A program made the translations under genes and the position numbers. Below the pieces are notes generated by a model. The model was not told the DNA's origin, did not search any database, and saw only the letters and a list, made by a program, of their open reading frames with translations. This document shows, piece after piece, positions 1-45,404 of a stretch of 64,000 bases of DNA. Within the stretch, counting starts at the first letter, position 1. Each line of letters starts with the position of its first letter. Source of the stretch: Lytechinus variegatus (lineage: Eukaryota > Echinodermata > Echinoidea > Temnopleuroida > Toxopneustidae); NCBI RefSeq assembly GCF_018143015.1, contig NC_054746.1:34070830-34134829 (forward strand), written 5' to 3'.

Positions 1-410
1 TCTGAATCGGACAACTCGACCACTTGAATTCTTCTTCAAAATTTCATTAAATAAAATTTCAAACTTTACTTCAATAGTATTTTCCCGCATAATCCATGTT
101 TCTTCAATACATTCTCGACAGAAAAATTGACATTTCAGTGCGTTTTGAGCTATTTTGAAAGAAAATATAGCGAGTTCCCTTGCAACGAGAATAATCCGAT
201 ACCGCCGGCGAGCCGTGTTCATTAATCTTACAACTTGCAAATTTGAGTTGATTTTTCCGTCACTTTACATATTTTGATGGTGAGTGTGTGCTATTTTGTA
301 TTTTCATATTCCATTTTCACATTTCCTGTACTTATTTAAAGTTATTGCATTTTACAAAACTGATAATTAATGCAAACTTTTTGAGATAGTTCACCTGGAA
401 AGGACACCGA

Positions 411-490
411 TGCGGTGCTTCGCCTCGCCGGCCGGCCAGCTGGGCGACCGGCTGTGCTGTGATTGTGACTGAGTGAGGCAGTCGGCTCAA
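411..490. repeat. GC-rich block conserved in both palindrome arms
   Basis: A GC-rich segment containing GGCCGGCCAGCTGG sits in AT-rich DNA and is nearly identical to the inverted copy at 9412-9487. The contrast with the diverged flanks suggests slower change or a recent gene-conversion tract. It could be a promoter-like part of the element, but no start site can be assigned. Confidence 0.5.
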
Positions 491-910
491 CTAGAGCGAA
501 GTCAACTTACTTATTTTTAGTTAATATTTCCCATTTTCCAATGGCGAGAGTGTGCTATTTTTGTATTTTTACACTTCTACTTATTAAAAAGTGTTTTAAT
601 ATCACTAAGCTGATTATCATTAGGACAGTGACTGCGTGGTCTGAGAATGCGCTTCCCAATTAAAGTAACCAGCCTTGACGCCCTTCAGGCCGCGGGGGGG
701 GGGGGGGGGTGGTGCTTCCAACCAACATCTAAACCAATTAAGGAAATACATTTGTAAGTTATGAAGTTTACGATATGGAATAGTTTATTGAAAAAATGTA
801 TTGTACCGAAATTGAAAAACTTGTTTTTATAAAAATCTAAATTTTAAAACTTGCTTTTTCTTATCGAAAAACATGTCTCTTATTTTTTTACCTGTCAGTA
901 TCTGTCACAG

Positions 911-1114
911 CTTTTTAAAATGCAAATTCCACTGGAAACAACGGGTCTTCTGGAGGATACAAGCACTTGGGCTGGTCCCAACCACCTACACCCGGGATGA
1001 GGAGAAGAGATTTCATACTCGACAAGCGATGGCCTTTCCATTTCTTTCACGAGCAGAAATGATACCGAGTTCCAATGACTTGGGCATCAGAGCAGCAGTC
1101 CCTTGATCGATGAG
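911..1114 (+). other. Exon-like segment, left arm
   Basis: The segment is preceded by CTGTCACAG, a plausible acceptor, and followed by GATGAG/GTAAGTACA, a near-ideal splice donor at 1115. The inverted copy in the other arm keeps both signals. Small indels between copies (for example about 12 bases near 985-1000) do not respect a reading frame, so a non-coding exon is more likely than a protein exon. No protein was recognised. This is inference from splice-site-like motifs only. Confidence 0.3.
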
Positions 1115-1484
1115 GTAAGTACAGCTTCTTAGATAATAATCAAATTTGTGCACTTCATGCAGGCATATCAAATTTCTATTTTTATTTCTTGGTATTTTCA
1201 AATTCTTTAAATGGAAGAAAGAACAATTGAATTGAACATTTACTTATTATTTCTTTTATACATTGTTTGAATTGAAAAAAAAAATAACTTTTTTTTATAT
1301 ATATGCATTGTATTCATAAAAATTCAAAATTGCTTCTTAAAAATGTAACTACTACATGTTTAGGTTAAGTAGAAGTTGTAACATTCTAAATTAATTTTGG
1401 GTATGTAGGGGTTATGCTTAATTCATGAGGAACATTTATGTCATACACATATAGATGATACCAAGTATCGTTCAAGTGAGCTTG

Positions 1485-1984
1485 AAGGGAAAGTTCACCC
1501 TGACAAAAAGTTAATTGTAAAAACAGCAGAAAAAATAATAAAAAAATATTGACAAAGGTTTGAGGAAAATCCATCAAAGAATTGAAGTTATTAGAATTTC
1601 AATTATTGGATTTGTGATGTCATGTGCGAGCAGCATTTCTGCATAATAAATGGTAAAAAGTCAAGAAATTGTAATTTTCTAAGAAAATTGAAACTGGTTT
1701 TACTATTCCTTTTGTATATATTCAAAGACAAAACATTTCACACCCAAACATGAAAAGAAAACAAAAATAAGTCATCAGGAACCATTGAAAAAAATTGAAT
1801 TCATGAATTTTATATTACAAAACATATGGGGCAGCTGCTCATTTATGACGCCACAAATCTAATACTTAAAATTCAAATAACGTTTTGAAACTTTTCCTCA
1901 TACATTCACCAATATTTTTTTTGGTATATATTACTTTTCTGCTATTTTTACGACCAACTTTTTTTCAGAGTGAACTTTCCCTTT
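1485..1984. mobile_element. MITE nested in left arm
   Basis: Its ends are inverted repeats: AAGGGAAAGTTCACCCTGA at the left, and the complement of AAGGGAAAGTTCACTCTGA at the right. The interior pairs too (a block near 1610-1640 with one near 1830-1865). The corresponding site in the right arm lacks it, so it inserted after the arms formed. Confidence 0.7.
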
Positions 1985-2807
1985 ATGATATTGAATTAGT
2001 TGCAATTAATTTAACTTTAATATATTTAAAAGTATTTGCTTCTAAACTGAAGGTTGAAATGATTTGATTTGTTTCAGTAGCAAAAGAGGTGCAGAGCTTC
2101 AAATAGTTGAAATTACTTTATTTTATTTCTATCTTTCCAGCTCTTTGAGACCACCTGAATTGCAAGCTCTGTATGGCCAGTTTTTGTGTGACAAAATAAA
2201 AGATAAGGGTTGAAAATCCCTCCAGCTAAGTTAGGGATCATGTAATTGCCATGGAAACCAAATATAGTAATGTATAACAGGTTGTATATTCATGAAAGTG
2301 CAATTGTTGGATAAATGTTAATTTATATTGGCACTAATGTAATTTTAAGATTGTCCTTATTTTTAGCTTTACATAAACACCAAAAGCAGAGAATATTGTT
2401 CCCAGTTGGAATTGTGTCATATTTATTATCATAATAGTATTATCATAATTGTGGTAATGTAATCCTATTTGAAATTATGAACCAGTATTTATTTTGTGTG
2501 GGATATAATATGTTTTATATACACTGAAGTTCAATATGTGTTACTATGTAATTTTAGATCTGATCAAGTTTACCTTAATGTTACTTAATAAAACCCACTT
2601 AAATCCAAAGAAGTATTTTGAATATTTGGTTCTTGCACTATTTTGTATCCCTTTTCTCGCTAAATATTTACCTTTTATTGAGAGCTGTGTTGACGGGTTC
2701 CATGACATTTGCTCTGGCAAATTCCACACCATAATCTTATGAACAGCTTCAACCAGTAAGGTCTAAACCTAACTTAAAACCATATTGCAACCCTGAACCT
2801 CTATCTT

Positions 2808-2933
2808 AAGGGGCTTTCACAATTGCTCGTGTGATTGTTTGCGATCACTTGGTCACAATATATGTTGCACAGAATTGCAACGGTGAAGGGTCGTAAGTAG
2901 TCACGCAACCAATTGTGAAAGGGGCTTTAGACA
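2808..2933. mobile_element. Short MITE-like palindrome
   Basis: CTTTCACAATTG near the left edge is matched in inverted orientation by CAATTGTGAAAG near the right edge, with weaker pairing inside. It sits in the left palindrome arm. It carries no coding capacity. Confidence 0.45.
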
Positions 2934-2984
2934 AAATTAAGCCTGGGGCAATTGTCGCAGGAGCAAATGTTGTGTCAAATGGTA

Positions 2985-3540
2985 ATCAGATGGAGATGAC
3001 TGAGAGATGAAGATGGGAGGGGGTGAAGATGGTGAAAGGTGGGATGGCCATGATGAGGAGTGATGGAGTTGAGAGGGGTGTGGATGATGAGTGGGTGGAG
3101 ATGAGAGGAGGGATGGGGATGATGCAAGGATGGATGGAGATGATGCGGGGAGGGATTGAGATAAGGTTTAGAGATGAGGATGGAGATGGTGAGGAGTGGT
3201 GGAGATGGTGAGAGGATCGAGTAGAGATGATGAGGTGAATGGAGATGATGTGGAAGGGTTGACAGGAGTAGGGGGTGGAGATGAGAGAGATTGAAATGAA
3301 ATGGGGATGGAGATGCGAAAATGGTTGGAGAAGACGGGAATGGAGATAATGGGGGTGGAGATGTCAGGAGGCGTGTTGATAACGGGAGAAGAAAGATAAA
3401 GGGCAGGGGGGATCATCATCACAAACATTATTGCCTCCACCAACTTCATCATCATCAATATCATTACCGTCATCGTCATTATGACATCATCACCACAAAC
3501 TTCATCATTATCATTGGCGCAATGAGTGAAAGATTTTGAG
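2985..3540. repeat. GA-rich minisatellite then CATCAT repeat
   Basis: 2985-3400 is an imperfect purine-rich array of GGAGATGATG-like units; 3410-3530 changes to ATCATCACC-type repeats. Their complements occur in mirrored order at 5070-6030, so this low-complexity tract belongs to the giant palindrome. Apparent open frames here follow from the repeats and are not genes. Confidence 0.7.
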
Positions 3541-3779
3541 GGGTAAGATGTGGCCCATCATGCCAAAGTTATTTTTTTTTAATTGTGAATGAGTAAAATT
3601 TTTGACATTTTTATTAGACAAACTCATTTTTTTATTATAACATCATACTAAAACTTTTCTCTTTTCGTTTCTCTTTCATTCATTTTTTGGGGGGTATTTT
3701 ATCTTCTTTTTTTTGAGGGGGGTGCTCTTGCCCCCAAGACCATGATCCCCCACCACCTGTACCAACTGATGACATCACT

Positions 3780-4200
3780 CACTCACTTATTTCTTTTGTA
3801 TTTTATTATATGAAATATGAATATTTTTATTTTCTCGACATTTCATGTGAAATGAAGTTTCATTCCTCCCTGAACACGTGGAATTCCATTATTTTAACAT
3901 TTGTGCTTCAGGCAAGGAGGTCCTAATCATTAAATTTGTAAAAACTGAAATATTGTATAATTCAAACGATAAAAAACAAGAGAAGTAGTGAGTGGGTGAC
4001 ATCATCGACTCTCTCATTTGGATGTAACTGGCTCGTTCATATAACTATTTTGTTAAAAATAAGCGAAACTTTGAAATGTCATAACTTTCTTATTCTACAT
4101 CCGATTTTAATGAAGTGTCAGCATTGTGCTTGTCTGATTTTTCTCTATTGATTCTAATCAAAATTTTCTGAGTTGGGACTTGACCTTTAATGATAAGTTC
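3780..4200. mobile_element. Degenerate copy of the GTCCACC foldback MITE
   Basis: It carries the family core seen at 7577-8165 and 40966-41490: a GTGAGTG-type block, ATGTCATAACTTTCTTAT, then an A/T-rich stretch ending near GGGACTTGACCTTTAA. It lies in the loop of the giant palindrome. The left end is poorly preserved. Confidence 0.55.
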
Positions 4201-4599
4201 CGAAAATTGGGGCATCAAGTTTTACCCATCAATCCTTCTGTCAAAAATTTATCAATAAATCAACTCAATCAATGTGCAATATGCTTGATCAAACATTCAT
4301 TTTTTTCAATAAATTATTTAATAAATCATCATCGGCCTTATCAGTCAATTTCTTGGTAATCATTTGGCACCCCCTAGTTCAAGTATCAACCCCCCCCTTA
4401 GTTCAAACATCAATTTTGCACTCCTACATGGATAGAACATGGCAGCGGATAAGGTTTTAATATCAATGACACCCTTAAAATTGTTATGAGGGAATGTGGT
4501 GACCGGGGATAAAATCTTTGAAGAATTTGAATAGTAAAACTTAGTTGATTCTAGAGCAAATTGATGACATGAATGAAATAGTACATTAATACATAATAT

Positions 4600-5060
4600 G
4601 GCCCACATATATAGCGATTATTTTTCTTTGTGGTCGAAAAAACTTGGTAGGGCTTGAGCGATTTTTTTGGGGGAAGGGGGGCTTTAATCCCCCCCCCCCA
4701 AAAAAAAAAACACGCACCTGAAGAAGAGCAAAAGGGAGGGAAAGAAGAAGAGAAAAAGTGGAAAGACAGAGCGAATGAAACAGTGGAATGGGGGATAAAG
4801 GAAAGAGGAAAAAGAAAAAAAAACAGAAAAAGCGAGAGAAGAGGGGAAGAGAGTGACGGTCCAACTTTAGGCCTTTTGAGATAACCTAATCCTGTTTTTT
4901 AGAATGAAATTATGATTTTCTTAAACTTTGGTCTGCAGGATTATCCCCACAACATATTTATCTTGGTGCCCCCTACAAAAGTTCAAGGCCCCCAGTGCAC
5001 CCAAAGCTGAATAAACCCAGCTACTTCATGCACTGATGAGATCGAGTCAATGGATTGCAT
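4600..5060. other. Unassigned loop of the palindrome
   Basis: The stretch has homopolymer runs (G and C tracts near 4666-4698, then AAGAAGAG purines to about 4860). No gene or clear repeat ends were seen. Confidence 0.4.
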
Positions 5061-5069
5061 CATTTCCAA

Positions 5070-6030
5070 GAGGTTCTCAATAATATTCCTGAGATGATGA
5101 AAAGGATGTTGGTGGCGATGGTGATGATAATGATGAACATTGGTGATGACGGTGACAATGGTGGTGATGATGATATTGGTGATCATGATGATGATGATTA
5201 TGATGGCGATTATACTGGTGATACGATGACAATAATGGATGATGTTGTGATGATGGTGGTGATGGTGGCGATGATGGTGATGTGATGAAGATTATGGTGA
5301 TAATAATGATGGCGATGATTATGATGATGATGGATGAGAATGATATTGGTGGTGATGATAATGATGTTGGTGTGATGATGATGGTGGTGATGGCAATAAT
5401 TGTGATATTGATGGTGGCGATGATAGAGACGATGATGTTGGTGATGATGTTGAATGATAATATGAAGATGATGATGATGATGACAGCGATAGTGATTATG
5501 GTGATGATGATAAGTGGTGATAATGATGGCGATGAAAATAGCGATAACGATTGTGGTGATGATGATGATAATTAAGATAATGGTGATGATAATGATGGCG
5601 ATGATAATAGCATAGTGATTTGGTGGTGATGATGATGATGGTGGTGGTGATGGCAATGATTGTGACGATCGTGGTGGCGATGATAGAGATGATGTTGGTG
5701 GTGAACTGGTGATGATGTTCCATTCCTCCTCTACATCCCCTCATCTCCATCGCCTCCTCATCTCTGCTCCTCTCAGCTTCATCTCTCATCCTCTCAGCTT
5801 CATCTCTCATCGTCATCCCCTCCATCCTTTCCCTCATAATTTCAATCCGTCCTCTCATCATCTTTTCCTCTCATCTCCATCCTTCCTTTCATCTCCATGC
5901 CTCCTCTCATCATCTCTATCCCTCTCATCTCCATCCTTCTTCTCATCTCCAACCCACTTTTCATTACCATCCTTTTCACTTCACCGTCTCCATCCCTCCA
6001 ATTTCAACTTCATCTCTCCCAAAATGTCCA
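5070..6030. repeat. GATGAT microsatellite then TC-rich minisatellite
   Basis: 5070-5715 is an imperfect GATGGTGATGAT array; 5716-6030 is a pyrimidine-rich array of CTCATCTCCATCC-type units. Together they form the complement, in reverse order, of 2985-3540. Reading frames of 70-150 residues open on both strands are products of the repeat. Confidence 0.75.
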
Positions 6031-6212
6031 CCTGATCACCACAGCACTTAACAGTGAAATGTTCAGCAGAAAAAAATACATGGGAGTAATAGAACCCAAT
6101 ATTCACAATACTTTTTAGTAGACTCTTTATTTTCTATGTAACAATGTGATAAACTTGATCACAACTAAAATTACTAAGTAACACATAATTTTCTGTTATA
6201 TCTTACAAACAG

Positions 6213-7084
6213 TAGGGGAAGGCGGGGTAAGTTGTGATAGTTTTTGCTTTTTGCATGTTAAAATTGATATGATTAATAATCTTGTCGAAATAAGTACCTT
6301 GCCTTTAAATTTAATTCTTCTGAAATATTTTCCACCTATATATAACTTTCTATCCCCACACTGAAAGTCATCGTGACCTTTAAAAAAAAACAATGTCAAA
6401 TGGCTCAACTTGCCCCATATATGGGGTAAGTTTGAGCCATCTTCTGGGGTATGTTGAGCCTCAAAAACTATGTACAAAGTGTATGAGGGGGGAACCAGCA
6501 TGTCAATTTTTTGTTTAGTCTTTTCACTTGCTAATTCTCTATAAATACTAACATCCTTTAAAAGGAAAAGAGCAGTCATGTAAATTTGCTCCTTTCAGCC
6601 GGCATTTCAATCAATTTTTATGGTTTGTTTGTTTTTTAAGATACATTACCATAGGAATTACCATGGCTCAACTTGCCACATGCTGTTCGGCTCAACTTAC
6701 CCCAGTCCGAACTAAGTGCGATAATTTTGTATCCACACATTTATTATGCATCCATCATATAAAAGACTATGACAAGAATGAAGATCTACCGGTATACCTG
6801 GACTAACAATGTTGTTATCATGTCTTTATTATATTTAAAGACGTGTGTGTTTATAAAGCACTTATTTATTTCACACTCTTTTTTTACTTTTTTGGCTGAA
6901 ATTCATATTTTTCCCTCTAAAAAACTACTTTTTGTTTCAAAGTTGAAAACATTGTGGTGGGGTTAGGGGTTATGCTATGGGTCATCAATACATGACACCA
7001 CCACAGTGTCTGACTCATTCATTATTGGCCTGGGGCTGGTGGCTCAACTTGCCCCTATGCTCAACTTACCCCGCCTTCCCCTAT
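6213..7084. mobile_element. TIR element with GGCTCAACTTGCCCC motifs
   Basis: The terminal inverted repeats are GGGGAAGGCGGGGTAAGTT at the left and its complement at the right, each next to TA, consistent with a TA target duplication. The interior holds at least five more copies of the 15-mer GGCTCAACTTGCCCC or close variants in both orientations (near 6400-6460, 6663-6710 and 7040-7075). It splits the right palindrome arm between sequences matching 2400-2530 of the left arm. It has no transposase frame and is a non-autonomous DNA element. Confidence 0.8.
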
Positions 7085-7576
7085 AGCATAACAAAACATG
7101 GTCTTGTTATGCTGTTGAAAAAAAAACATACATAAAGAAAATCAAATAGTGCACCATTCCTGGTATATTTGTTTATTATTTATATATTCACAAATTCATG
7201 TGTGCCCAGTCATACTTTTGCCTCTTAGTATAAAAAGCAATTGCCAGTCCAACTTCAGACAAATAATTCCTGCTATACTTCCTTAAACTTAAAGCCTGCT
7301 ATTATTTTTGTATACTATTTGTGCATATTCACATATTCATGTGTGCCCATACTATATTTGTTGATTTGTAACTCTGATTGAGAACAATATTCTCTGCTTT
7401 GGGTGCGAATGTAACAATATAGACAATCTTAAAACTACAATAGTAACCATACACATTAACATGTAAAAATTAATTGCCCCTTTTGGTTTAAGAATATACA
7501 TTTCAAAATTTATTGCATGATTACCATGACAACTAACTTAACCCTAACTTATGTAGAGGGCTCTTTCAAGGTTAAT

Positions 7577-8165
7577 TAAGTCCACCCCAGAAAAATGCTA
7601 ACTTGTATACATAGAGAAAATCAAACTAGTATAGTGCTAAAACTCATCAAAATCGGATTTAAAATAAAGTTATGACATTTTAAATTTTCGCTTATTTTTC
7701 GTAAAACAGTGATATGCACAAATAGGTACCGATAAGTAAGTCGATGATGCCCATCACTCACTATTTCTCCTTTTTTTATTGTTTGAATAATAAATATTTC
7801 ATCTTTTTAAATAGATCTGATTTGACAATAAGGACTAATTTGACTGAACCATATTAGCATTAAACAATGATAATTCCACATGTTCAGGGAGGAATTAATC
7901 GTTGTATCACTTGACAATGAGGAGAAAATTAGAATATTTCATACAATAAAATACAAAAGAAATAGTGAGTGGATAACGTCATAGTCTCCTCATTTGCATA
8001 CCAGCCAGGATTTGCAGATAACTGTTTTGTGAAATTAAGCGAAACTTTAAAATGTCAAGACTTTCTAATTTTACATCCGACTTTGATGAAATTTTCAGTG
8101 TTATGCTTGTTGGATTTCTCTCTTTTTATTCAAATCAATTTTTTGTTAGAGTGGACTTGTCCTTT
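7577..8165. mobile_element. Palindromic MITE (GTCCACC family), full copy
   Basis: It starts TTAAGTCCACCCC and ends GAGTGGACTTGTCCTT, an inverted pair, and its interior also pairs: GAAAATTTTCAGTG-type and TTCGCTTATTTT/AAATTAAGCGAA-type blocks mirror each other. Related copies are at 3780-4200 and 40966-41490. It is inserted in the right arm of the giant palindrome only. Confidence 0.8.
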
Positions 8166-8738
8166 CAGCACTTCCTTACAATTTTGTTTTATAAATAAAA
8201 ACAAGCTAAGTACGGTTTGCAATCCATGTTGTCTCAACTAAGTCAAACAGCTGAAAAGATGAAATGAAGTATGAAATGAATTATTGACAAAATTATTGTA
8301 ATTTCAAATATTTGAAGATCTGCAGTCTGCACCTCTTGATAATAAAAGAAATTAGACCATTTTCAATCGTCACCTTGTCTTGAACAATTTAGAAGCAAAT
8401 ACAAGTTTAATATATCAAAGTTAAGTTAATTTGCTAAACACACTAGAACTATACCTGTTATATTCTGGAATAATTACATAACATAAAGGATCCACATAAA
8501 TTTCGCATTACCATACCCAAAAATTAATTTGAAATGTTACAACTTCTACGAAACCTATAAGTAATTTTTTTGTTCAATTCAAACAATGTATAAAGAAAAA
8601 AAGTAAATTCATTTATATTCAATTGTCCATTCTTTCTTTTAAAGAATTTGAAAATACAAAAAAAATTAAATTTCACTTTGATATGCCTGCATGAAGTGCG
8701 CAAAAATTGATTTATTGTATCTATAAAGCTGTATTTAC

Positions 8739-8932
8739 CTCATCGATCAGGGGACTGCCGCTCTGATGCCCAAGTCACTGGAACTCGGTAATATTTCTGC
8801 TCGTGAAAGAAATGGAAAGGCCATCGCTTACAAGTCGAGTATGAAACCTCTTCTCCTCATTCCTGGTACAGCCCAAGTGCTTGTATCCTCCAGAAGACCC
8901 ACTGTTACCAATGGAAGTTGCATTAAAAAAAG
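8739..8932 (-). other. Exon-like segment, right arm
   Basis: This is the inverted counterpart of 911-1114. On the minus strand it begins after CTGTCGCAG and ends GATGAG/GTAAATAC, keeping acceptor and donor. It is one of the better-conserved blocks shared by the arms. No protein is recognised. Confidence 0.3.
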
Positions 8933-9904
8933 CTGCGACAGTAATCGATAACGAAAAAGCAAGTTTTTAGATTTTGATAAAAAGTTAAGTTTTTCAATTT
9001 CGGCAGAGTACATTTCATTTTTCAATAAATTATTCAATTTTGATAATTATAAATACCCAATATATTGTCAGTTGTTTACCCCTGCCCTTCAAAACTTCGA
9101 AAACAATAAAAAAATTATAGTTATTTAAGAAAAAAAAATAAACAATGACACTTTCCTACAAAAATTGTAAACTTCATATCTACATGTAGTTACATGTACA
9201 TATGCCGGCTACGAAGACATTTTCAAATCTATTTCCCTTTTTTAGTTAGAGACATTAAAATTTAAAAAAAAAACCTTTTCAATAAGTGGAAGAAGCGTAA
9301 AAATACAAAAATAGCACACTCTCGCCACTGGAAAATGAGCAATATGTCAAGAGACGGAAAATTAACTGAAATAAGTAAGTTGACCTCGCATAGCATAGCT
9401 AGCTAGTTGAGCTGACTGCCTCACTCAGTCACAATCACAGCACAGCCGGTCGCCCAGCTGGCCGGCCGGCGAGGCGAAGCACCGTACCGTATCGGTGTCC
9501 TTTCCAGGTGAACTATCTCACAAAGTTTGCATTAAGTATCAGTTTTGTGAAATGCAATAACTTTAAATAAGTAAAGGAAATGTGAAAATGGAATATGAAA
9601 ATACAAAATAGCACACACTCACCATTAAAATATGTAAAGTGACGGAAAAATCAACTCAAATTTGCAAGTTGTAAGTTGAATGAACACAGCTCGCCGGCGG
9701 TATCGGATTTTTCTCGTTGCAAGGAAACTCGCTTTATTTTCTTTCAAAATAGCTCAAAATGCACTGAAATGTCAATTTTTCTGTCGGGAATATATAAAAG
9801 AAACATAGATTATGCGGGAAAATACTTTTGAAGTAAATTTTGAAATTTAATTTAATGAAATTTTGAAGAAGAATTCAAGTGGTCGAGTTGTCCGATTCAG
9901 AGCC

Positions 9905-10000
9905 AACCCTGGACAACTCGACCGGGACGAGTTGTCCAGGGCAGCGGGTCGGGCTGTCCAGGGTCGGGCTGTCCGGTGGTCGGGCTGTCCCGGAACCATG
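9905..10000. repeat. Hairpin and tandem GGTCGGGCTGTCC motif at palindrome end
   Basis: TGGACAACTCG and CGAGTTGTCCA form an 11-bp stem with a 7-base loop at about 9909-9937. It is followed by three copies of a GGTCGGGCTGTCC-like motif to about 9990. The stem sequence is itself part of the arm terminus (also at bases 8-20). This may mark subterminal repeats of the element. Confidence 0.6.
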
Positions 10001-10140
10001 AACGGAACGCGATTTACGGTATCTTCGAAGCTCAAACACAAAACTTATTGCAATTGTAATAAGGTTCAAGATCTTCTCGGTGCGATTTATCGCTATCTCC
10101 GAAGAGCTGAGGATCAAAACACAGAGAGAGAGAGAGAGAG

Positions 10141-10381
10141 GGGTGCTAAAATGCGGGCTAAAATGTTCATAAACGGTAAACCCCACCAGAAAATGTACTA
10201 TTTTATGCTGAAAATTTAATGTAGACAATAACACTAGAGTTCAGCGAACCGAGAAAGACAAACTTTATTGAATGTAATATTTTATCACCTTACTCTACAA
10301 TTAAATATCCAAATGATGGCAGAATTTGATCAATTTTAAATATTTCAATTTCTGGTGGGGTTCACTTACTTTTTAGCACCA
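10141..10381. mobile_element. Tc1/mariner-type MITE
   Basis: The left end GGTGCTAAAATG...GTAAACCCCACCAGAAA is mirrored by TTTCTGGTGGGGTTCAC...TTTTTAGCACCACTG at the right, followed by TA. CAGTGGTGCTAAAA-type termini and a TA target suit Tc1/mariner. About 240 bp, non-coding, preceded by an (AG)n run at 10121-10140. Confidence 0.7.
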
Positions 10382-11106
10382 CTGTATCTCTATGTCCAGC
10401 TCATGTTGATAAACAGTACGCATAAAACAGTTTACGCCTATAAATGATCCTATAAAATAGGTAAATAATCAAAGGTTTTTTTTCCCCACATTTATACATT
10501 GGTAAAGATCTCTTTAAGAGAATTACGATATAAGGAAAAAAAATCTGCTTGAGTGTGCACCGCTTATATTTTAAAGTTCGTGAAAAATGATTTGCGCAAT
10601 ATCGATAATAGACTTTCATCGTGAAGAGCACATGGACGAGCTAAGAAGATTGATTTGAAAACATATTTTACCTTAACTTCATGCCAAATGCGCCCATCCC
10701 TTCCTCCCCACCCACCGAGACAATCGTGATGATGTCTGCTTTTACTGAGCTGTGATTCACATGAAATGGATTAGGCTCTATTTCGTTCTGTTAATCATTA
10801 TCCTGCTAGGCAAAAGTGTAGAGAAACATCTTTAAAACAAATATGAAATGTAAACCTACTTTAAATGATGAAAAAATTAGTAAAAAGTTAATGCTGGAGA
10901 TGTCTGAAACAAACTTTTGTTTGCATTCATTAATGTCCTCAGTTGCAGCTGGAACAAAAAGGGTAAAGTCTGTGCTTACCTAGGGGCACAATGATAATAA
11001 GGGTGACAAAGTTGTCACAAAATTTTAAAATGTATTTGTTTTATTTCAATTTGCTTTCCGTTTTTCCTCCAACACAGATTCTTTTTCTTCTTCTGTTGGT
11101 TTGAGT

Positions 11107-11705: not shown

Positions 11706-12014
11706 ACATGAAAAAATTTTTTTTGCAAGTCTTCCCCTCACATTATTTCATTCACTGGTCTTCCTCCTCTTATTTTCTTTTCTTCTGTCTTTCTTCTTTT
11801 CCTTTTTTCTTTTCTTCTTTCTCCCTTTTTTTGCTCTGCCAATTTTTTCTGGGGGGGGGGCACACCAAATCTCAGGGGGGAGGGCACGTGCCCCAAGGCC
11901 CCCCTGTAGCTACGCCACTGGTTCGTTAGTCCGAAAACGAAATGAGGTTCGTAATTCCGAAGGTTCGTTAGTCCGAAAACAACATGAGGTTCGTAATTCC
12001 GAAGGATCGTAATT
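11706..12014. repeat. Remnant of G-rich TIR repeat plus TTCGTAATTCCGAA repeats
   Basis: 11706-11921 is a pyrimidine tract, a G run, GGCACGTGCCCC and a terminus TAGCTACGCCACTGG. The same order ends the element at 19998-21455. It abuts 11921-12014, where GGTTCGTTAGTCCGAAAACG and GTTCGTAATTCCGAAG alternate, the unit that builds the arms of the 31.3-34.5 kb foldback. Confidence 0.6.
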
Positions 12015-12788: not shown

Positions 12789-14259
12789 TTATTCGATGTG
12801 AGCTTGTAGAAAAGACTTGTAATATTTTTTGAAAGTATTTAATAAAGGTGAGTTCTTTAAGTAGGATGGCGTATTATTCCACAGCTTTGAACCATTCACT
12901 GTGATCGAATTTGAAGAAAGTACGTTTGATTTCATGAATGGGATGCGGAGATGTTTGTTATGTCTTGTGTAGTAAGAATGAAGGGAGTCTGCAGTGGAGA
13001 ACATGTTGTCAAAAATATGGGGTAAAATTTGCTTGTGGTATTTATACATGAATAAAGCCGTTTGGTATTTAACAATGTCTGGAAGTCGTAGGATATTCAA
13101 CTGCTTATATAGAGGGGGTGTGTGAGCACGGAAATCTGCATGCGTGAGGATGCGAATGACCTTCTTTTGGAGGATCAGTGTACGGTTCAAAGCTGTGGGA
13201 GATGCTCTGCCCCATAATATGTTACCATAATTTAAGTATGGCAAAAACAAAGTATTATACAGTACATGAAGTGTTTTTAAAGGTAATACATGCGACAATT
13301 TATAGATTATACCACAATTTCTTGACAAGATTTGATTAAGACTGTCTATGTGACTTTTCCAATTTAAGTTTTGGTCAATAATCACACCAAGAAATTTAAT
13401 ACAATTGACTCTCTCAATAGTATTCGAATTAAGAGTTATATCATTATTTTTTATCAATTGTTGATGAAAGCCAAAATTCATGAATTTTGTTTTTTGAACA
13501 TTAAGAGAGAGTTTGTTAGCTTGAAGCCATTCTAATAAATTGGCAAGATTATTGTTAATATCCTCTGTGAGTTTTGCAGAATCTTTGTTACTAAATATTA
13601 AGTTTGTGTCATCTGCATATAAAATAGTGTCACAATGTGTTGAGGAATTATTAATATCGTTCACGTATAAAAGAAAAAAACAATTGGCCAAGAATTGACC
13701 CTTGCGGAATTCCGCACTTAACAGATAACAGAGGGGAGGAATAAGTATCGACACAAGTGAATTGTCTCCGCCCTTTAAGATAACTTTCTATAAGATCCAG
13801 GGCGGTACCTCGAATACCATAGTAATACAATTTTTTCAACATGATATCAAAGTCTAGGGTGTCGAATGCCTTGGAGAGATCAATAAAAATGCTTGTACAA
13901 AGTTCTTTTTTGTTCAAGGCATTCGACACCCTATTTATGAAATATAAAAGTGCATGTTCAATGGAATGATTTTTACGAAAACCGAATTGGCTTGGATGTA
14001 ATAACTGATTTTTTTCAATATAGAGTGATAATCTTTTATAAATAATTTTTTCAAGTATTTTGGAAAAGAATGGCAGGATAGAAACAGGTCTGTAGTTATT
14101 TACTTCATGTTTATCACCCTTTTTGAAAATTGGAATAATTTTAGAGACTTTTAATTTATCTTGAAAAATACTTTTCTTTAAGCAGTGATTGAAAATATAA
14201 CATAACGGATCGGCTATGGAAAAAATTACATACTTTTGACAATATACCATCAAAACCAC
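12789..14259 (-). pseudogene. LINE ORF2, reverse transcriptase part
   Basis: Two overlapping minus-strand frames (14259-13651 and 13754-12789) carry RT motifs in order: KVSKIIPIFKKGD, NNYRPVSILPFFSKILEK, QFGFRKNHS, FIDLSKAFDT, GIPQGSILG, then in the second frame YADDTNLIFS (catalytic YADD) and FLGVIIDQNLNWKSHI. The frame changes between the GIPQGS and YADD motifs, around 13690, so the protein is broken. The C-terminal part matches the thumb region usual in CR1/L2/Jockey-group RTs. Confidence 0.9.
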
Positions 14260-14448
14260 TGGAATTACTATTCTTCATGCTTTTCACATGTTGAATTATT
14301 TCACTGGGGCTAGTAGGGGAGAGGAATATTGAGTTGGAAAATTTGTGTTCAAATAATCGTTAAAACATTTTTTTGGAATTGGAATATTTTTATTGAGTTC
14401 TGGACCAATATTCTGAAAGTGTACGTTGAATAAGTCGGAATTTTTTTG

Positions 14449-15700
14449 TTAATCCTGGGTTACATCACCATTACATTGAACATAACTAACATGTGAACCT
14501 GCATTTTTGTTGAGTGCGTGGTTTATTATTTTCCAAGTCTTTGTTGTGTTACCACATGCAGTATTTGATGCATTATGATAATATTGGCGCTTACTTAGTC
14601 TAATAAGTGAGTTTAGTCTATTTCGGTATGATACATACTTCAACCGTTTCAGGGTGGTTGGCTTTTTCAAAAATTTGCGGTATAAATCATTCTTCTTATT
14701 AATTGATTTAATAATGCCCCTTGTAATCCACGGTTGTCGTGGACATTTACGATTTACAACATTCTGAAGGGGCAAATGTTTATCATATAGCTCCTGAAAA
14801 TTAGAAAGAAAAATATTGTATGCTTCATTTGGGTCTTCAATTCCAAAAATACCAGACCAGTCATGCATGCTCAAAATTGACGAAAAGTGGTTAAGGTTGT
14901 CGATTGATAAATTTCGTTTTTGAAATTTTGTTTTGGGTTGATTTTGTAGTTTAGATTCTGAAATATGAAATAAAGGAAAATGGTCAGATATATCGGAGTA
15001 TAAAACGCCATTGTTTGATTTTTTATTACAGAGATTGACAAAAATATTGTCAATACATGAAATTGAAGTAGCTGATACACGCGTTGGTTTCGTAATAAGC
15101 GGTCTGAATGAGAAAGACGCAAGTGTATCAGAAAAAGTTTGAGTGGATGCATGATGAGGTCTGAGTAAGTTGAAATTAAAATCACCCATGATATAGGCTG
15201 GTTTATTTTCCTGGGTTATATGGCATAGACATTGTTGTAAAGAATTAATAAAAACATTTGGATTACAGTCAGGAGCGCGATATATGATCCCTATAATACA
15301 CGAAGTCTCTTCACGTGTACCTGATAATATTTCTATAAATAAAGTATCAATTTTTTCAGAACTGAAATTCAGATCGTCACGTGTATTATAGACAAGTTGA
15401 TCAGATACATATAAACAATACAAACAAACCCCTCCACCTCTTCTTCGTGGTCTATATTTTTGTAAAAAAGAATAATGAGGAATATTATACAAAGTGGAAA
15501 CAGAGCTCTTGAACCAGGTTTCAGTGAAACCATATATTTGAAAATTATGTGATAAACTCTGTAATAAGTTCATGCAATAGGGGAATTTCTTGGCTAAGCT
15601 CTGGGTATTCATATAGAATATAGAAAAAGATGAAGTGTTCAAGTTAGATGTACTACATGCATTATTAAAAGAGTCAATCGAGTAGTATTTACAGTATCCC
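14449..15700 (-). pseudogene. LINE ORF2, AP endonuclease part
   Basis: The minus-strand frame contains apurinic endonuclease motifs: FYMNTQSLAKK (Asn), GFTETWFK (catalytic Glu), IIGIIYRAP, MGDFNFNLL, SCIDNIF and YSDISDHFPLF (Asp-His). The open frame reaches a stop at about 15700 and overlaps the end of the zinc-finger frame, suggesting a frameshift between two parts of one original ORF2. It ends at a stop at 14449; about 190 bases separate it from the RT frame. Confidence 0.9.
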
Positions 15701-16109
15701 TAAAAGCTACGTCAAAATTTGACTCGTCAAGTAGAGGAGAAGAGAAAATCTCTAGGTTCTCAAAATGTCGAGTTTGTACAGGTAAGCATGAGGAACATGA
15801 GACTGCATTAACAAATTCTTGTTCATTTTTTATATTATAGAAAGGTAAGATAGAGGCAAGGCAAGATGGACATGGCGAATATGTATTGATACCGAGTCCT
15901 ACTTTATTTAGACAAGTGATGTGTGCAATGGACTCACATATAGTACAGTTAGCAGTATCAGCTATGTCATTCACATCATTTTTGCAGATAGAGCAGGTGT
16001 ATGACATGGGCAACACAAATACAATTAACAACCAACAACAATTACACAGTAAAAAGAGAAAAATTAAGACTACAGTTGGGTAAAACAAAAATACCCGATA
16101 TACTCTCAA
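15639..16109 (-). pseudogene. LINE PHD-like zinc finger segment
   Basis: The 156-residue frame holds a C4HC3 pattern: YTCSIC, NCTIC, AHITC, CPSC, the spacing of a PHD finger. PHD fingers are known in CR1-like non-LTR elements. A hydrophobic stretch lies before it. Its 3' end overlaps the endonuclease frame out of phase, consistent with a broken fused ORF2. Confidence 0.75.
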
Positions 16110-16156
16110 GACATTAACAATGGAAGATCAATAAGTTCATCGCGTAAAGTCCAGTC

Positions 16157-16714
16157 CTAGAGATTCAAGAGATCTTGTTCACATGTGATGAGTTTCTTCA
16201 CAGTCTTTCCATTAGTGGAGGGTAGTGACACAAATACTCTGCCATCAGTGCTCCAACAAGATAAGATCTTGGAAGTTTCTCTCGATTTGAGGACCTTCTG
16301 ATAGAGGATTTGGCGAACTTGTGTCAAATCTTCTTGGATACTCATTTTCTTCCCTTTCAGAAGCTTTCTAGCACCAATGACCTTAGCTCGGACTCTGTAA
16401 GAACAGAACTTTACAAGCACTGGACGCGGGTGGCCATTGGAAGCTCGTTGCTTTACTCTGTGGCATCTGTCGATATCATCTTTGGATACATTGACTTGTA
16501 ATTCCTTTTTAAACAGAGAGCACACAACATCGTCGACATTTTCTCCTGATTTTTCTGGAATCCCGAAGATACGTACGCTGTTACGCCTTGTATACTGCTC
16601 CAGATTATCAATGAGGGAGGTTGCCTTCTGCAGCTTGTTGTTTTGGGTTTCCAGTTGCTCTTGTAGTTTCTTGACCTCTGCGTGACTGGAGACCTGGGAT
16701 GATTCTATATCCAT
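16157..16714 (-). CDS. LINE ORF1 protein (coiled coil, RNA-binding type)
   Basis: The 185-residue frame starts MDIESSQVSSHAEVKKLQEQ and has a coiled coil (about residues 10-45). Then comes LEQYTRRNSVRIFGIPE (about 38-54), the hallmark of L1/CR1-type ORF1 proteins with an RRM-like domain, followed by DIDRCHRVK and RPVLVKFCSYRVRAKVI. Such proteins bind the element's RNA as trimers. The frame is intact but short. Downstream ORF2 is broken. Confidence 0.8.
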   Translation of the reverse strand: MDIESSQVSSHAEVKKLQEQLETQNNKLQKATSLIDNLEQYTRRNSVRIFGIPEKSGENVDDVVCSLFKKELQVNVSKDDIDRCHRVKQRASNGHPRPVLVKFCSYRVRAKVIGARKLLKGKKMSIQEDLTQVRQILYQKVLKSRETSKILSCWSTDGRVFVSLPSTNGKTVKKLITCEQDLLNL

Positions 16715-16799
16715 AATTTTGGCTTGGTTAATCTAACATGTTATACTCTACGTTGAGAATGATTTCATGAGATTAAAGTCAAGACTTCCTTTCTTTCGT

Positions 16800-22374: not shown

Positions 22375-25300
22375 ATGAATCTCCTCCGTGTGTTCATTTG
22401 CTTGTCATCAATGACGATGACGGCTATTGCCTATACACTACCTGGACCAGGAACTACTTGGAACATGACAGACGTTTTGAGAGGTAGATGCCAGGAGTAC
22501 CGCCAGTGCCTCCACGGGGGTCTTTGTCTACCCTATTAGTAAGTCCCCCGTTCCCACTTTTGTAATGTTTTGAGACGATAACAATATAATTGCTTGTGAT
22601 GGTTGTGTCAGGTAAAAATATTCTTTTTTATTTGTATTTGAGAATACAATAATGAATACAAATATATTTTTGTACGGTTGATGATTAATTCTTGAAAAAT
22701 ATTGATAATTCATTACAAATGTCTGAATATTTATTTCATTTAGGCTTTATAATGATCGTAATCTTTATTCTCAATCTTATATCTCTCAGCTCAGAAATTC
22801 TTTCTGAATATTCTCATTATCCTATACTCCATGTGTCTCTCTTTCTTCCCCTCATTTCCTTTATCCCAACACATGCGCACTCTATTTCGATTTCTCCTTC
22901 ACCCTCCCACACACACCCCCGCATACACATACTAAGTCTCTATGTTTATATATACAATGTATATATATATATATATATATATAATCTGTCGATCTGACGG
23001 TCAATCGGATCTGGCTCGCCCTAACCATTAACCCGTCTCTGTGGTCTAGTGGTTAAGGCACCGGCGTTCAAAGCTGGGGGCCCGGGTTCGATTCCCGGCA
23101 GAGACATTTTTTCGGCATCACCAATTTTTCCAAAGGGTAGATAGCTCTGGGGAACCTTGATATAAGCTACGCCTACCATTGTTCTCTTCATCCATTTCTT
23201 TACTATATATATATCTCTTCCGGTCTCTCATCCTTATCCATATACCTTACCATGCACGCATCTGTTCAGCTTTCACTAGTCTTCTACCCACACCCACACG
23301 CCATTATTTCAATCCATATACCATCCATCTCACTGTCTTTCTACCACACACACACTTTCTCTTTCTCTCACCGTCACGAACAGACAAATTTTACTCCTGT
23401 CCCCTTTCTCTCTATCTATCCATTTCTCACTCCCACACACTCAATTTATCTTTCTCCTCTCACCCTGACTTAAAAACACAACTCATTCCGCCCAAGAGTC
23501 CAAATCTCTCTCTTCCGATTTCTTTCTTACCATCACTCTCACTCCAACACACTCTCCCTTTCTCCAGTCTAACCCCACACATACACTCTCTTTCTCGTAC
23601 ACTCACCAACACACTCACAATCTCTCCTCCTTGTTTACCATCACCCCTGTCCCTCTCCCACACGCACACAATGTTTCTTTCCCTCTTACCCTATTACGTT
23701 TGTTATATCTTCTGCTTTTATAATCATCGCTATACCCACACACGCACCTTCTTTCTCTCTGTTATCACCCACACCCTCACACTCTTCGAACATTTATCGT
23801 ACCCAATATACGCTCTTTTTCCTTTTCATACTCTCACCCATACTCAAACCCACACAAGCACCTCTAGTCTATTGTTTTTTTTTTCTCTCTCTTCTTTCCC
23901 CTTAAACATAAACAAATACACACACACACACCTCACTCACACACGCCCTCTCCCTCTTTATAACACTCGATCTCACCTTCACCCACTCTTAAACCTGTTT
24001 CCCTTTCTTTTTCCTCTCGCCATCACCATGGCATGCCCCTTTTTTCTCTCTCCAACTTTTCTCCCTCTCTTACCGTCACATACAGTTACATTCATTTTCA
24101 TCATTACCCACACACCCTCCCTTCTTGTATTTCATTTCTTAAATTTTTGTGCATCAATAAATATCAGTTTTGCGACGGATCCATGTCAACAGAACATTTA
24201 TCCCTCAAATAAAAAAAAAATCATTTTTCTAACTATATATCGTTATCGTGTTTAGCGGTGATGTCCAGTGTGATGCTGCCGTGAATTCCTTTCTTGGAGC
24301 TATCCGAGGGATGGATCCCTGTAATACCCCATACAACGCCTATGATGAATTCCTTACCATGGCTCCACCGAATACTAAACCTGGAACGGTAAGTAGGAGT
24401 CGGTCTGAAGCTTTTTTTCTCTCTCTTGACATCCCGATCATTTATTTCCCGGATTTCTTTACCTTAGATATTTCTTTAAAGTAAGCTCTAGTGCATGTTA
24501 AGCTGTTTATGCTTTGTTTTCTCCATCAAATTTTCATCTGTATGAATTCATCTTGAAAATCAGATATTCATTCTCACTCCTTTTAGTCTTTCAATATTAC
24601 GAACTTACTTTACAATTGGTTGAGTCAGAGCAGAGACTTTTTAAGACTACTTCAAGCAGCATTATTAGCCATTGAAAAATAAAAATCAGAGAAAAATCAA
24701 ATTTTATCAAAGTAGGATAGAAATCTCTCATAGCATTTGGTGGCATATCTCGTGTGACAGATCGCGTTTCATTTCCCATGGACTCGATTTCTAGCACTTT
24801 GCGCCAAAATATTTCCTGTTTCCAAAATATCTTCTGTTCTTTAGTCGTATTAATTTTGGTAGAAATTATTAATTAATAATGTTGTCTACTGTTTGATGAT
24901 GAAGGAGATAGTGATAATGAATATGATAATGATTATGTTGTTGATAATGATGATGATGGTGGTATGATCCTATCAATGACGATAATGATTTTGAGGAAAG
25001 GAAGGACATGCAATGGTGGTTATAATGATACTAATGATGATGTTTCAGCCCCTCTCCTTGGCCCTCATCAGTTCCCTTATTTTGTTTTCAATTCTCCATC
25101 TTCCCAACAGACAACGATGTGGACAGGTGTCAGCGGTGCCTACATACCGCATGACGTTGCCGAGGTGAGTCGTGAGTACATCGTCCTGGGTGAAACTTTC
25201 CCAGGATACATGGCTCTAAACCTATCCTTCTGTGGTTCTACTGATCCAGATGAACCGTCTGGGTTCAACTACACAGTCTGCCCTACTGAAGACACCGACC

Positions 25301-28300
25301 GATCTGGATGTAGCAACAACACAGTTGCTACCTTCTGGGATCGTGCGTCCGAGCTAGTAAGTGCAGTATTCGGATTAAATACTTTAAAAATAATAATAAA
25401 AGCTGGTTTTATAAAGCGCTATTTGCAAGAGGATACAAAGCGCTGCTATTTTTACCCCGGCTTTAGCTCAAGCTACCGTCACCGGTGCTCAGTGCATGCA
25501 AGGAATTACTCCTGTCGGATACTCATTCACCTCACTTGGGTCGCGTGCAGCACAGTGTGGGTAAATTTCTTGCTGAAGGAAAACACGCCATGGCTACGAT
25601 TCGAACCTACGACCCTCTGTTTCAAATGCAAGAGTCAGAACCACTAGACCACCAAGCACCCATCTTATTTATCTTTTATTTGAACATTTACCTTTGCCAA
25701 ATCATGATGGATGAATATACTGCAAGTATATAGTTAATCTTACAGCAGTGGCGTAATGAGCCAATTTGATGCGCCAAACATGGTGTGTTTTGGGCAAAAT
25801 ATCATTAAAGTCGTACACGAGCAAATATTTTGACATTTTGAAATAAAACATTCTATATTCTTTTATAAATATATATATTCAACCATTGAGGTTCTTTTTT
25901 TAGCTCCAAGATTTGACGATATATTAAGATGAAAAAAATATATATTTAACCCTTTACCTTTCCATTTTTTTTTCTCTTTATTTCTTTGTCGAGGAACTCC
26001 CAATAAGATCCCTACCTCCCCCTATTTATACGCCAGTGGCTTCCAGTGTCTAGACTTATACTTCTTTTTAGTACGTTCATGCATGTCCATCAATTCTAAA
26101 TCGATGAACAAGTCGTGAAGACTAGAGGTAGACATTTTAAAAGCTTTAAAAAAATATTGGGGACTATAATGGGTATATTCCCAACACTGCCTTAAAAAAA
26201 AATTACTGCCACAAATGCCTCAAAATGTCCAAACTGAGACCACCATCATAATTTTGATTATAGGTCTCCGATACATAATTAGTTGCAACTCTACATTTTA
26301 CTTGGCTTTGAAATTTTATCCATACAGTTTACAAGACAAGCTAGTGGTGTGGTCTATGTTGTTTTGAATGCACAAAGAGATCGAGGGGCGTACCATCTCG
26401 AAAGGTAATACTTTTTTTCAACATACATGCTAAGTATGCTACCTTAACAAAGAGATGGATAGTAGGCCTAATCATTGCCGCGTAGATTATACTCAAAAGT
26501 CTTTTTACCCATTTTGTGTAGATAAAGTGACAATGATTATCATGATACCCTCTTAATAACCCATTGCGGCAATTATAGTGTCAATCAAGCTGAATTAAGC
26601 CAATCAATCAAACAGTAGTGTTTTACCCATGCAGTGCCTATTCCTTGGAAAAATAGGATAGGTGCCCAAACAAGGAAGCACATTATTCTTAAAAATGTAA
26701 TTTGTTTACAATTTAATGAGGTGCAATGTTTGTCCAATTCCTTAAAGTATATAGGGTGAAACCATCGACAGATCGACTCGTCAGATATTACTTTAAAATA
26801 GGTCTGTCTAACAACACCCATTTCCGCTATCCCCCATTACCGATAAGAAATATTGTTGAATTGGCTTTGATAAGGATGATCTACATTTACACTATCTGGG
26901 AATCGTCACCAACCGTAATAAGATCAGTTAATCGAGCGATGACTTAATGAACCCATTTGAATCCATAGTAGATCGTAAAATCATTATTTTCAATGTTAGT
27001 TTGGATTTGTTTTAACCACAATCTTATGATACGATTAGAAAATGAGAGCATAATTATGTTTATATGTATTATACATATATATCATAGACTATGACTCATT
27101 CTTTCTATTTTTTTTATTTATATTTTGGTCTTGCCGATAATTTTATCTTTCGTTATCACTTTATTTTTCAAAATTTTCAGTATTTTTCGTGTTCTTTAGC
27201 ACTGTGAGGAGCCGTCAAAATATTATGGTATTGTCCAATTTTTAACCAGTTTGCCACCATGTTCCATTATATCTCTATAATAGTACATTTGCCCGTATTG
27301 AAGTACCTGCATTTGATCGTACCAAGGTTACAAACATTGCCATCTATCTCATCCCGGACTTCACAATTCCGACACCAAACAATCGGTAAGATCAGACATT
27401 CACCTTATTTAAAAGGAAATTGTATTTTTTAATGAATGGGGTGATACTCGAAGTTGCTGACTAATACTAAACTTGTAATAAACAGTAACAAGATTTAACG
27501 GACAGACAATTACGAATTTGATGATTATTAGCTCAAATTATCATTTGAGTTATTACAAGGCATGATAAATATTTATATTATGCACCACCCTTTGGTAGAA
27601 AAATATGTAAACCTACACACTAAGAAAAAAGGGTTCAACTTTGCACCTTTAAAGGTGCAGACCAAATATCACACTGGGAGCATGCACCTTTGAGGTGCAA
27701 CTTTGTACCTTTTTGGAAAGGTGCAACTTTAAGGTGCAATTGGCACCATTAAGGTGCAGAATTGCACCCCACATGTGCTTATTTGCACATTCAAGAGAAA
27801 TGCAAAGTTGTACCTGTCCAAAAAGGAACAAAGTTGAACCTTAAAGGTGATCCCAGTGTGACATTTGGTCTGTACCTTTAAAGGTGCAAAGTTGAACCTA
27901 TACACGGTTCTAACTTTACGCGGTTTTCCTATCAGGATGCCACCGTGCCTGGCCGTCCGCTTCTTCTGTTTGGCCAAATATATCCGGTATTCATGGAATT
28001 CTTCTGCTAAGCATGATTATAACCAGAGTCAAAGATTTCTTATTCTACCTTTCCGCAATAATCAATAAACATTGGCACAAACAGGAAAGAAATGGTGGAT
28101 CGTGTGCAATGTTTGGTTCCCCATATATAAAGGTTTACTAAAGTTGCAGTTATCAAAATGACTATCTTAGCCAAACGACCTGATCCCCCAAATGAATATT
28201 AAACATAGACCACTTTTCTTACAATTGATTTTCCCAAAACAATCATGGCAACCGTAACAATAAAATATACGAATAATGCATTTTTATGTGTGTTTGAATT

Positions 28301-34200: not shown

Positions 34201-34467
34201 TTAACGAACCTTCGGAACAACGAACCTTATTTCGTTTTCGGATTAACGAACCTTCGGAACAACGAACCTTATTTCGTTTTCGGATTATCGAACCTTCGGA
34301 ATAACGAATCGTCGGAATTACGCCACAAATGTTCGGATTAACGAACCCTTTTTCGTTTTCGGATTAACGAACATCGAGGTATAGGCAATTTACGTGTTTC
34401 GGAATTACGAACCTTCGGAATAAAGAACCTTCGGAATTACGAAGCTTCGGAATTACGAAGTGTAACC
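31272..34467. mobile_element. TU-like foldback element with tandem-repeat arms and 8-bp target duplication
   Basis: AGAATATC at 31264-31271 recurs at 34468-34475 as a target duplication. The left arm (31280-31560) and right arm (34010-34460) are inverted arrays of TTCGTAATTCCGAAGG and GTTCGTTAATCCGAAAACG units. Inside, 31910-32450 carries GCGAGCGCGAA units, and 32880-33640 carries the same units inverted. 32505-32775 and 33635-33905 are direct repeats. No protein frame. Sea urchin TU foldbacks have tandem-repeat arms and 8-bp duplications, a close structural match. Confidence 0.8.
32055..32152. mobile_element. Short GGGGCCCGTTGCATGAAA MITE
   Basis: GGGGCCCGTTGCATGAAACT at the left is mirrored by AGTTTTATGCAACAGGC at the right, with an inner stem. 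It is nested in the TU-like foldback. Relatives occur at 59407-59549 and 61626-61769. Confidence 0.65.
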
Positions 34468-37700: not shown

Positions 37701-38775
37701 CCCTTATAAAAAAAATTGAATGGTATACCATTGACTACCATTTATCATACACCATTGATATACCATTGGAATACCATTCGCACAGCACCCACCATACACC
37801 AATGGTATACCATTCAAGCCTCAATGGTATACCATTCAAACTAATTTAAATAATTCGGACGTTACTATTACCATATTCATGAGCACCATTTACCATTCAT
37901 ATACCATTGATCAAACACCATTCACCATTGATCTACCATATGGCCACTATAGACAGGTTTACCATTGACCACCATTCACCATTCAGCCACCATTCACTGG
38001 CCTACCATTTACCATTCAGCCACCATTCACTGGACACCATTGGCCTACCAATTACCTTACACCATTCGCCTACCATTCAACATACACCATTCGTGTACCA
38101 TTCACCATATACCATTCGTGTACCATTCGCGTACCATTCACTTTACACCATTCGCGTACCATTCACCGTACACCATTCGCCGTACACCATTCGTGTACCA
38201 TTCACCGCTCACCATACACCATTCAACTACCATTCGTCGTACACCATTCGCGTACCATTCACTGTACACCATTCACCGTACACCATTCGCCGTACACCAT
38301 TCGTGTACCATTCACTGCTCACCATACACCATTCAACTACCATTCGTCGTACACCACACACTGTTCACCATTGATTGACCATTCACTTTACACCATTCTA
38401 CCATACACCGTATACCATTGACCTACCATTTACAGTGCACCATTGGCCTACCATACACCATTGAACTACTATTCACCGTACACCATAGGCTTACCATACA
38501 CCATTGGCTTACCATACACTGTACACCATTGACCTACCATTTACCATACAACACTGTCATACACACTATACTATTAGTCAACCATTCAAATAACATCATT
38601 GGTCATACACTATAGACCACAAGTGTAAATTCAATGGTAGACCAATGGTTTACACTGAATGGTAGACAGTAGAACAACGATGTGCAATGTATAGTAGGCC
38701 AATAAAGTACAGTGAATGGTAGACCAATGAGGAACAGCATATCTCTGGGGTTAATGGTAGGCTTAATAATGGAAT
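37701..38775. repeat. ACCATT minisatellite region with strand switch
   Basis: From a CCCTTATAAAAA terminus the sequence is dominated by ACCATT every 9-14 bases (TACCATTCGCGTACCATTCA and variants) up to about 38600. Near 38625-38770 the motif appears as AATGGT, the opposite strand. Several frames stay open because the array lacks stops. No coding role is supported. Confidence 0.85.
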
Positions 38776-40870: not shown

Positions 40871-40965
40871 ATAAAATGAAATAATTATTTCATATTTTCA
40901 TACATGTGTGTATGATATGTCCCAAGTATCATATCATTATTTCCAGCAATGCATATCTTCACATT

Positions 40966-45059: not shown

Positions 45060-45204
45060 CTGGAAAGGCAAGGCCAAAATTGATGTCGGGTCAGCATTCA
45101 CAACGTTTAACTCTTCAGACCCTACCTTACTATATTTTACACTTGAGACCCTGCCTCAGTATATTTTGTGAGATGTGTCTGTTGTGCATGTGTGCGTGTT
45201 GTGT

Positions 45205-45373: not shown

Positions 45374-45404
<31 letters not shown>

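Follow-up and report, generated by a model that had tools for sequence, protein, structure and literature searches.

A palindrome of the sea urchin Lytechinus variegatus that looks like an old tail-to-tail inverted duplication

Sea urchin TU elements have long inverted repeats with 15-bp tandem repeats in the outer arm; they served here as a lead only, and a literature search found no paper on them. We analyzed a palindrome at positions 1–9901 of a 64-kb window (the whole stretch of DNA studied, 64,000 nucleotides, positions 34,070,830 to 34,134,829 of contig NC_054746.1) from the sea urchin Lytechinus variegatus. It may resemble the TU elements in its long inverted repeats and, on the right side, in a short tandem array with units of about 15 bp close to the outer end, and is unlike them in having gene-like signals inside. 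The locus looks like an inverted duplication of a transcription unit. Since no recognizable gene was found in the arms, the wording is kept at that and a gene pair is not claimed.

Other long inverted repeats are compared here as they are described in the available parts of the respective reports. The inverted-repeat paralogous gene pairs of Caenorhabditis have convergent or divergent arms, of which some are homogenized in part, and one such inverted repeat was disrupted by an insertion; one inverted pair is a mosaic, 100% alike in the first 297 nt and 59.6% alike overall (PMC1803023). The palindrome likewise has inverted arms of which some part is near-identical and the rest diverged. The Caenorhabditis arms contain recognizable genes compared across species (PMC1803023), whereas none was recognized in the arms described here. 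Primate sex-chromosome palindromes also have inverted arms; these are homogenized by arm-to-arm gene conversion and are more than 99% identical, while in the present case an identity of about 95% is limited to the outer 500 bp (PMC8981503, PMC3723533). Galileo elements have arms of 0.5–1.2 kb with internal repeats that carry extra transposase-binding sites (PMC3688188). Tetris elements have arm repeats, arms of up to 1735 bp, target duplications of 8–10 bp and several copies (PMC4079207). The palindrome shares long inverted repeats with internal arm repeats with both of them, but its arms are about 2.7–3.0 kb (left insert and unmatched stretch excluded) compared to 0.5–1.7 kb. Inverted duplicates of old age are a known kind, as are foldback elements; the gradient of arm identity and the CpG contrast described below are mildly unusual.

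Comparison of the window with itself by BLAST gave nested, in-register inverted matches from 1/9901 inward to 3506/5543 around a loop. Long inverted repeats flank a middle segment, and on the left side their terminal position is not visible. When low-complexity sequence was left unfiltered, eight blocks made up the best chain, which had 1671 bits and covered 1927 of the 3514 left-arm bases:

1–597/9270–9901, inverted, chain block 1, 633 columns, 89% including gaps
775–1290/8559–9038, inverted, chain block 2, 78%
1361–1478/8441–8557, inverted, chain block 3, 75%
2004–2124/8290–8431, inverted, chain block 4, 71%
2210–2404/7379–7569, inverted, chain block 5, 69%
2535–2693 (+)/6036–6187, inverted, chain block 6, inner arm, 70%
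3084–3243/5825–5964, inverted, chain block 7, 71%
3446–3506/5543–5604, inverted, chain block 8, 79%

The arms were found to be homologous in register across non-repetitive sequence. With the filter on, the best chain gave 1654 bits in total, 1408 bits of it from four outer blocks; the rest of the filtered chain was a related insert pair and the ends of another insert, not inner arm blocks. The controls were made with the filter on and are to be compared with this filtered score: the highest score among 50 dinucleotide shuffles of 1–9901 was 36 bits (mean 1.44), and scores of 0 to 372 bits were obtained for nine further blocks of the window, equal in size and overlapping by half, the top one being a foldback at 31–34 kb. 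With 1408 bits in the four outer blocks against at most 36 in the shuffles, there is no doubt about the outermost 2.1 kb of the arm, whereas weaker blocks support its inner part.

The main parts of the palindrome are as follows:

1–600, +, outer part of the left arm, promoter-like and CpG-normal, very probably extending past the window start
2992–3514, +, left simple repeats, GGAGATGA-type and ATC-type, mirrored at 5093–5964
3515–5092, no strand, loop of 1578 bp (about 1.6 kb)
5093–5964, −, right simple repeats, GAT-type and TCTCATCTCC-type, from the self-match and repeat finding
6036–9038, −, inner and middle right arm carrying one-sided inserts, its blocks matching 775–2693 in register
9268–9901, −, outer part of the right arm, mirror of 1–600 (match of 1–597 to 9270–9901)

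A first-pass annotation of this DNA had described a ten-kilobase palindrome with ordered inverted matches running from its outer ends to a loop of about 1.5 kb, arms of about 3.5 kb and mirrored low-complexity tracts. Order and nesting of the matches were confirmed, as was the loop. The mirrored tracts are real: the left simple repeats are GGAGATGA-type and then ATC-type, and the right ones are their complements in identical outside-in order. The arm length was not confirmed as it stands, as it includes one-sided inserts and an unmatched left stretch. The outer ends and the overall length had to be given up, since window base 1 lies inside the left arm, which is still 96% identical to the right arm at that point. 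Of the first 60 bases, 59 are identical to the right arm, which makes it very probable that the arm extends to the left of the window.

Both arms were found to carry inserts that the other arm lacks:

1479–1990, no strand, foldback insert of the left arm, resembling a miniature inverted-repeat transposable element (MITE), with self-inverted arms 1485–1634/1834–1983, 75%
6213–7083, no strand, 871-bp element in the right arm with perfect 22-bp terminal inverted repeats (6213–6234 is the reverse complement of 7062–7083, 100%)
7575–8166, no strand, MITE-like foldback insert of the right arm, self-palindromic at 7578–8158, 66%

The 871-bp element has TA at both ends, which may be a target duplication. 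The insert at 7575–8166 belongs to a family with relatives at 40962–41484 and, as a fragment, at about 3764–4192 in the loop. A left stretch at about 2694–2990 has no partner in the right arm and was read by eye as a further insert. The palindrome is older than its one-sided inserts. Since separate inserts are present in each arm it is old, and neither a recent event nor an assembly fold. The first-pass annotation had already argued from arm divergence against an assembly fold, and this is in agreement with substitutions of 5–23% by block; such a fold was rejected on the divergence together with the unrelated inserts.

The identity between the arms decreased from the outside inward. The outermost match, 1–495 to 9387–9901, was 95.4% identical by substitutions and had two indels. 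Over nine blocks from outside inward the substitution identity was 0.954, 0.909, 0.920, 0.918, 0.876, 0.805, 0.825, 0.773, and 0.788, a drop from 95% to about 78% with a rank correlation of −0.92 to inward position. Positions 601–775 could hardly be aligned between the arms (42% in bin 601–700, 57% in bin 701–800), while an island at 1001–1100 was 95% identical compared to 86% and 80% in the neighboring bins (77–86% in the two bins on each side). The arms thus contain stretches far more alike than the remainder, a feature expected of a gene-converted palindrome. A single age for the whole palindrome without a later process does not yield both gradient and island. Homogenized outer ends, selection on them, or the need of a transposon for matching ends would do so, and selection could produce the same gradient as gene conversion.

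The CpG content also differs between the outer and the inner parts of the palindrome. The observed/expected ratio (o/e) for CpG was 1.18 in 1–600 and 1.08 in 9270–9901, compared to 0.30–0.66 in the eight 1-kb bins of 1001–9000 and a window median of 0.72. A ratio of 0.50 or less was found in seven of the eight bins of 1001–9000, in all twelve of 52001–64000 and in four of the remaining 44 bins. Toward both outer ends the ratio climbed to 0.79–1.46 (bins 1–900 and 8701–9900). In the crown-of-thorns sea star, methylation is given as 4.9–5.1% for promoters, 48.4–49.8% for introns, and 11.5–12% for intergenic DNA in the available part of the report (PMC12550476). Judged by its CpG content, the palindrome looks like a gene body between two promoter-like ends, but it may also be an old methylated transposon.

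The region 52001–64000 has a CpG o/e of 0.11–0.43 in each of its twelve 1-kb bins, as in a methylated gene body, and we take it for one. It contains an open stretch of coiled-coil appearance (55747–56034), for which no Pfam match above cut-off and no PDB match below E 0.38 was obtained.

Splice-like signals directed inward were found in both arms. The donors after 279 and 9623 were within the top 0.29% of GT sites of the window in both arms. Those after 1114 and 8739 were within the top 0.06% (left, GAG/GTAAGT) and 1.2% (right, GAG/GTAAAT), and the acceptors ending at 2140 and 8251 were within the top 0.17% (left, pyrimidine-rich) and 0.85% (right) of AG sites. These signals support a gene-like organization of the arms and do not prove it. 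The candidate blocks that they delimit are:

911–1114, +, exon-like block of the left arm, read inward, 204 nt, with the identity island 1001–1100 and a donor
2141–2404, +, second exon-like or 3′ region of the left arm after the acceptor ending at 2140, with 2210–2404 matching 7379–7569
8739–8932, −, exon-like block of the right arm, 194 nt, with a donor

The match of 918–1116 to 8740–8930 is 91.8% identical and has indels of 5, 14, and 4 bases. A protein-coding exon-like block was dropped as a candidate in view of these indels and of the lack of a convincing Pfam or PDB match. Searches of Pfam and PDB gave no recognizable gene in the arms, which present splice-like signals only; in Rfam, at gathering thresholds and over the whole window, the sole match was a tRNA at 23035–23106. 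A conserved AATAAA, found at 2587 in the left arm and at 6131 in the right within inner blocks that match each other, was given no weight, as the arms hold 5 and 10 AATAAA.

A further feature lies at the arm ends:

9881–9990, + (one of six copies reversed), cluster of the 13-bp motif GGTCGRGYTGTCC, ending in a 15-bp tandem repeat

Allowing up to two mismatches, this motif, which was picked after reading the sequence, had seven matches in the window, six at 9881–9990 and one at 9–21, compared to a mean of 1.24 and a maximum of 4 in 100 shuffles. The 15-bp tandem repeat at 9946–9990 (2.9 copies by TRF, the Tandem Repeats Finder) corresponds to the last three motif copies and lies just outside the visible right arm. 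An internal direct repeat was found in the right outer arm with a score of 35 (at most 18 in 100 single-base shuffles, run for this arm only) and in the left outer arm with a score of 27.

A separate foldback of about 3.2 kb is located at 31276–34464. Arrays of 16/26/42-bp units (TTCGTAATTCCGAAGG, AAGGTTCGTTAATCCGAAAACGAAAT) in inverted orientation form its two ends, its inner arms (32157–32274/33387–33499) are 75% alike, and no target duplication was clear by eye. Its bins have a CpG o/e of 0.85–2.22, partly since the repeat unit contains CG. A lone array lies at 11920–12010.

The explanation that we favor, with a probability of about one half, is that the palindrome arose by inverted duplication long ago and that its outer ends were later homogenized. 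The identity island, the contrast in CpG and the splice-like signals directed inward speak for it. One transcription unit would have been duplicated in inverted, tail-to-tail orientation; an unmethylated region of about 600 bp resembling a promoter would form the outer end of each arm, from which transcription would proceed inward toward the loop. The arms would then have decayed independently and received separate transposon insertions, the inner parts going down to about 78% identity, and the outer ends would afterwards have been homogenized by gene conversion. Transcription, its direction, the conversion and a present or past function of the copies are what we infer from the patterns described above.

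Several observations weigh against the duplication. The nine identity blocks were BLAST matches chosen by hand, and the lenient treatment of gaps in the alignment makes the inner values of about 78% upper bounds; the near-unalignable 601–775 is not predicted by a smooth conversion gradient. The splice sites were chosen by eye and scored with untrained matrices, and the acceptor ending at 910 (left) or 8933 (right) is a weak one in each arm, its score being reached by about 10% of the AG sites of the window. The exon-like blocks differ in length by 10 nt, and the reading frame is therefore not common to both arms; either one of the exon-like frames would be broken or the block would be noncoding. 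The best Pfam match of six frame pieces from both arms (stops as X) had an E-value of 0.13, two arm open reading frames gave no Pfam match at E 0.01, and two arm peptides gave nothing below E 0.08 in PDB. A low CpG content is not peculiar to the palindrome either: four equally low bins elsewhere (at 12, 42, 49, and 50 kb) are not known genes, the 300-bp bin 10801–11100 just outside the right arm has an o/e of 0.13, and GA and GAT repeats depress the ratio in two bins of the palindrome as an effect of composition. Methylation of repeats was also raised in the crown-of-thorns sea star, as far as the report is available (PMC12550476). Finally, GGTCGRGYTGTCC at up to two mismatches is located only at the arm ends, which suits a transposon.

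A very large foldback transposon in the style of the TU elements is the other origin that the first-pass annotation had offered beside an ancient inverted duplication. It would be an old, non-autonomous DNA transposon. Its outer ends, with transposase-binding repeats, would have been kept alike because transposition needs both, and the inner arms would have decayed in the element lineage and after insertion. Besides the motif at the arm ends, the tandem repeat adjoining the visible right arm and the best preservation of the outer ends fit this origin, and a clear foldback with tandem-repeat ends is present in the window at 31276–34464. The internal direct repeat in each outer arm also resembles the arm repeats described for Tetris (PMC4079207) and Galileo (PMC3688188) in the available parts of the reports. 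However, the CpG contrast and the inward splice-like signals suit a gene better, and neither element is reported to have arms of this length. No transposase was recognized by Pfam among the open reading frames tested. Matches of 1–11000 elsewhere in the 64 kb were limited to the family of MITE-like inserts and GAT repeats, and self BLAST showed no further copy of the arm itself in the rest of the window. Zero matches were obtained for three arm or arm-end patterns in viral contigs and for one in genome contigs, which has little meaning because neither collection consists of animal genomes; the intended positive control in viral contigs, a repeat unit from the foldback at 31–34 kb, also gave zero. 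On account of the motif cluster we retain the transposon as a serious alternative, though the less probable one, and of the two origins proposed the evidence leans to the duplication, with its CpG-normal ends, inward splice-like signals and an interior that is CpG-depleted, unlike the clear foldback at 31–34 kb. A structural palindrome with no transcription unit of its own, located in an intron of a larger and methylated host gene or in some other methylated domain, is quite unlikely. The CpG depletion would then belong to the surroundings, which agrees with its extension over the loop and both arms but not with the climb of the o/e toward the outer ends on both sides. An artefact of assembly or library, such as a hairpin read or collapsed haplotypes, would fit a left arm that reaches the window edge; it is extremely improbable for arms with 50 indels across the nine blocks, the substitutions given above and unrelated inserts. 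A slight chance is left to readings that we have not thought of.

The remainder of the window contains other features:

10142–10385, short element to the right of the palindrome, inverted ends 10176–10203/10338–10365, 86%, outer limits by eye
12792–16732, −, LINE-type retrotransposon (long interspersed nuclear element), two open stretches with reverse transcriptase (Pfam E 1.1e-9 and 4e-21) and an endonuclease-like one that narrowly misses the Pfam cut-off
24233–25647, +, pieces of an ADP-ribosyl cyclase (CD38-like) gene, Pfam E 1.5e-12, second piece below cut-off (E 5.6e-4)
about 37724–38587, another array, of ACCATTCAC units
43260–46358, recent local duplication, 43260–43862 and 45750–46358 direct (94%), 44522–44747 and 45523–45749 inverted (95%), CpG o/e 1.14–1.32 in four bins
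49230–50500, long minisatellite array with core ACTGAGACACCATTG and periods from 11 to 225 bases, CpG o/e 0.16 in 49001–50000

A more specific form of the favored duplication, which we consider unlikely, would be a polarity gradient of gene conversion recorded in an animal. Conversion would start at the two unmethylated promoter-like ends and fade along the arms, the identity going down over 2.7 kb from about 95% to about 78% overall (interrupted by the near-unalignable 601–775), and a long hairpin RNA could arise by read-through of the loop. If the palindrome is an old inverted duplication, the reach and the starting point of arm-to-arm conversion would be measurable from a half-decayed duplicate that has an identity gradient and contrasting CpG content at its ends. 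If it is a foldback element instead, it would have longer arms than Galileo and Tetris, and gene-like signals would be tied to such an element.

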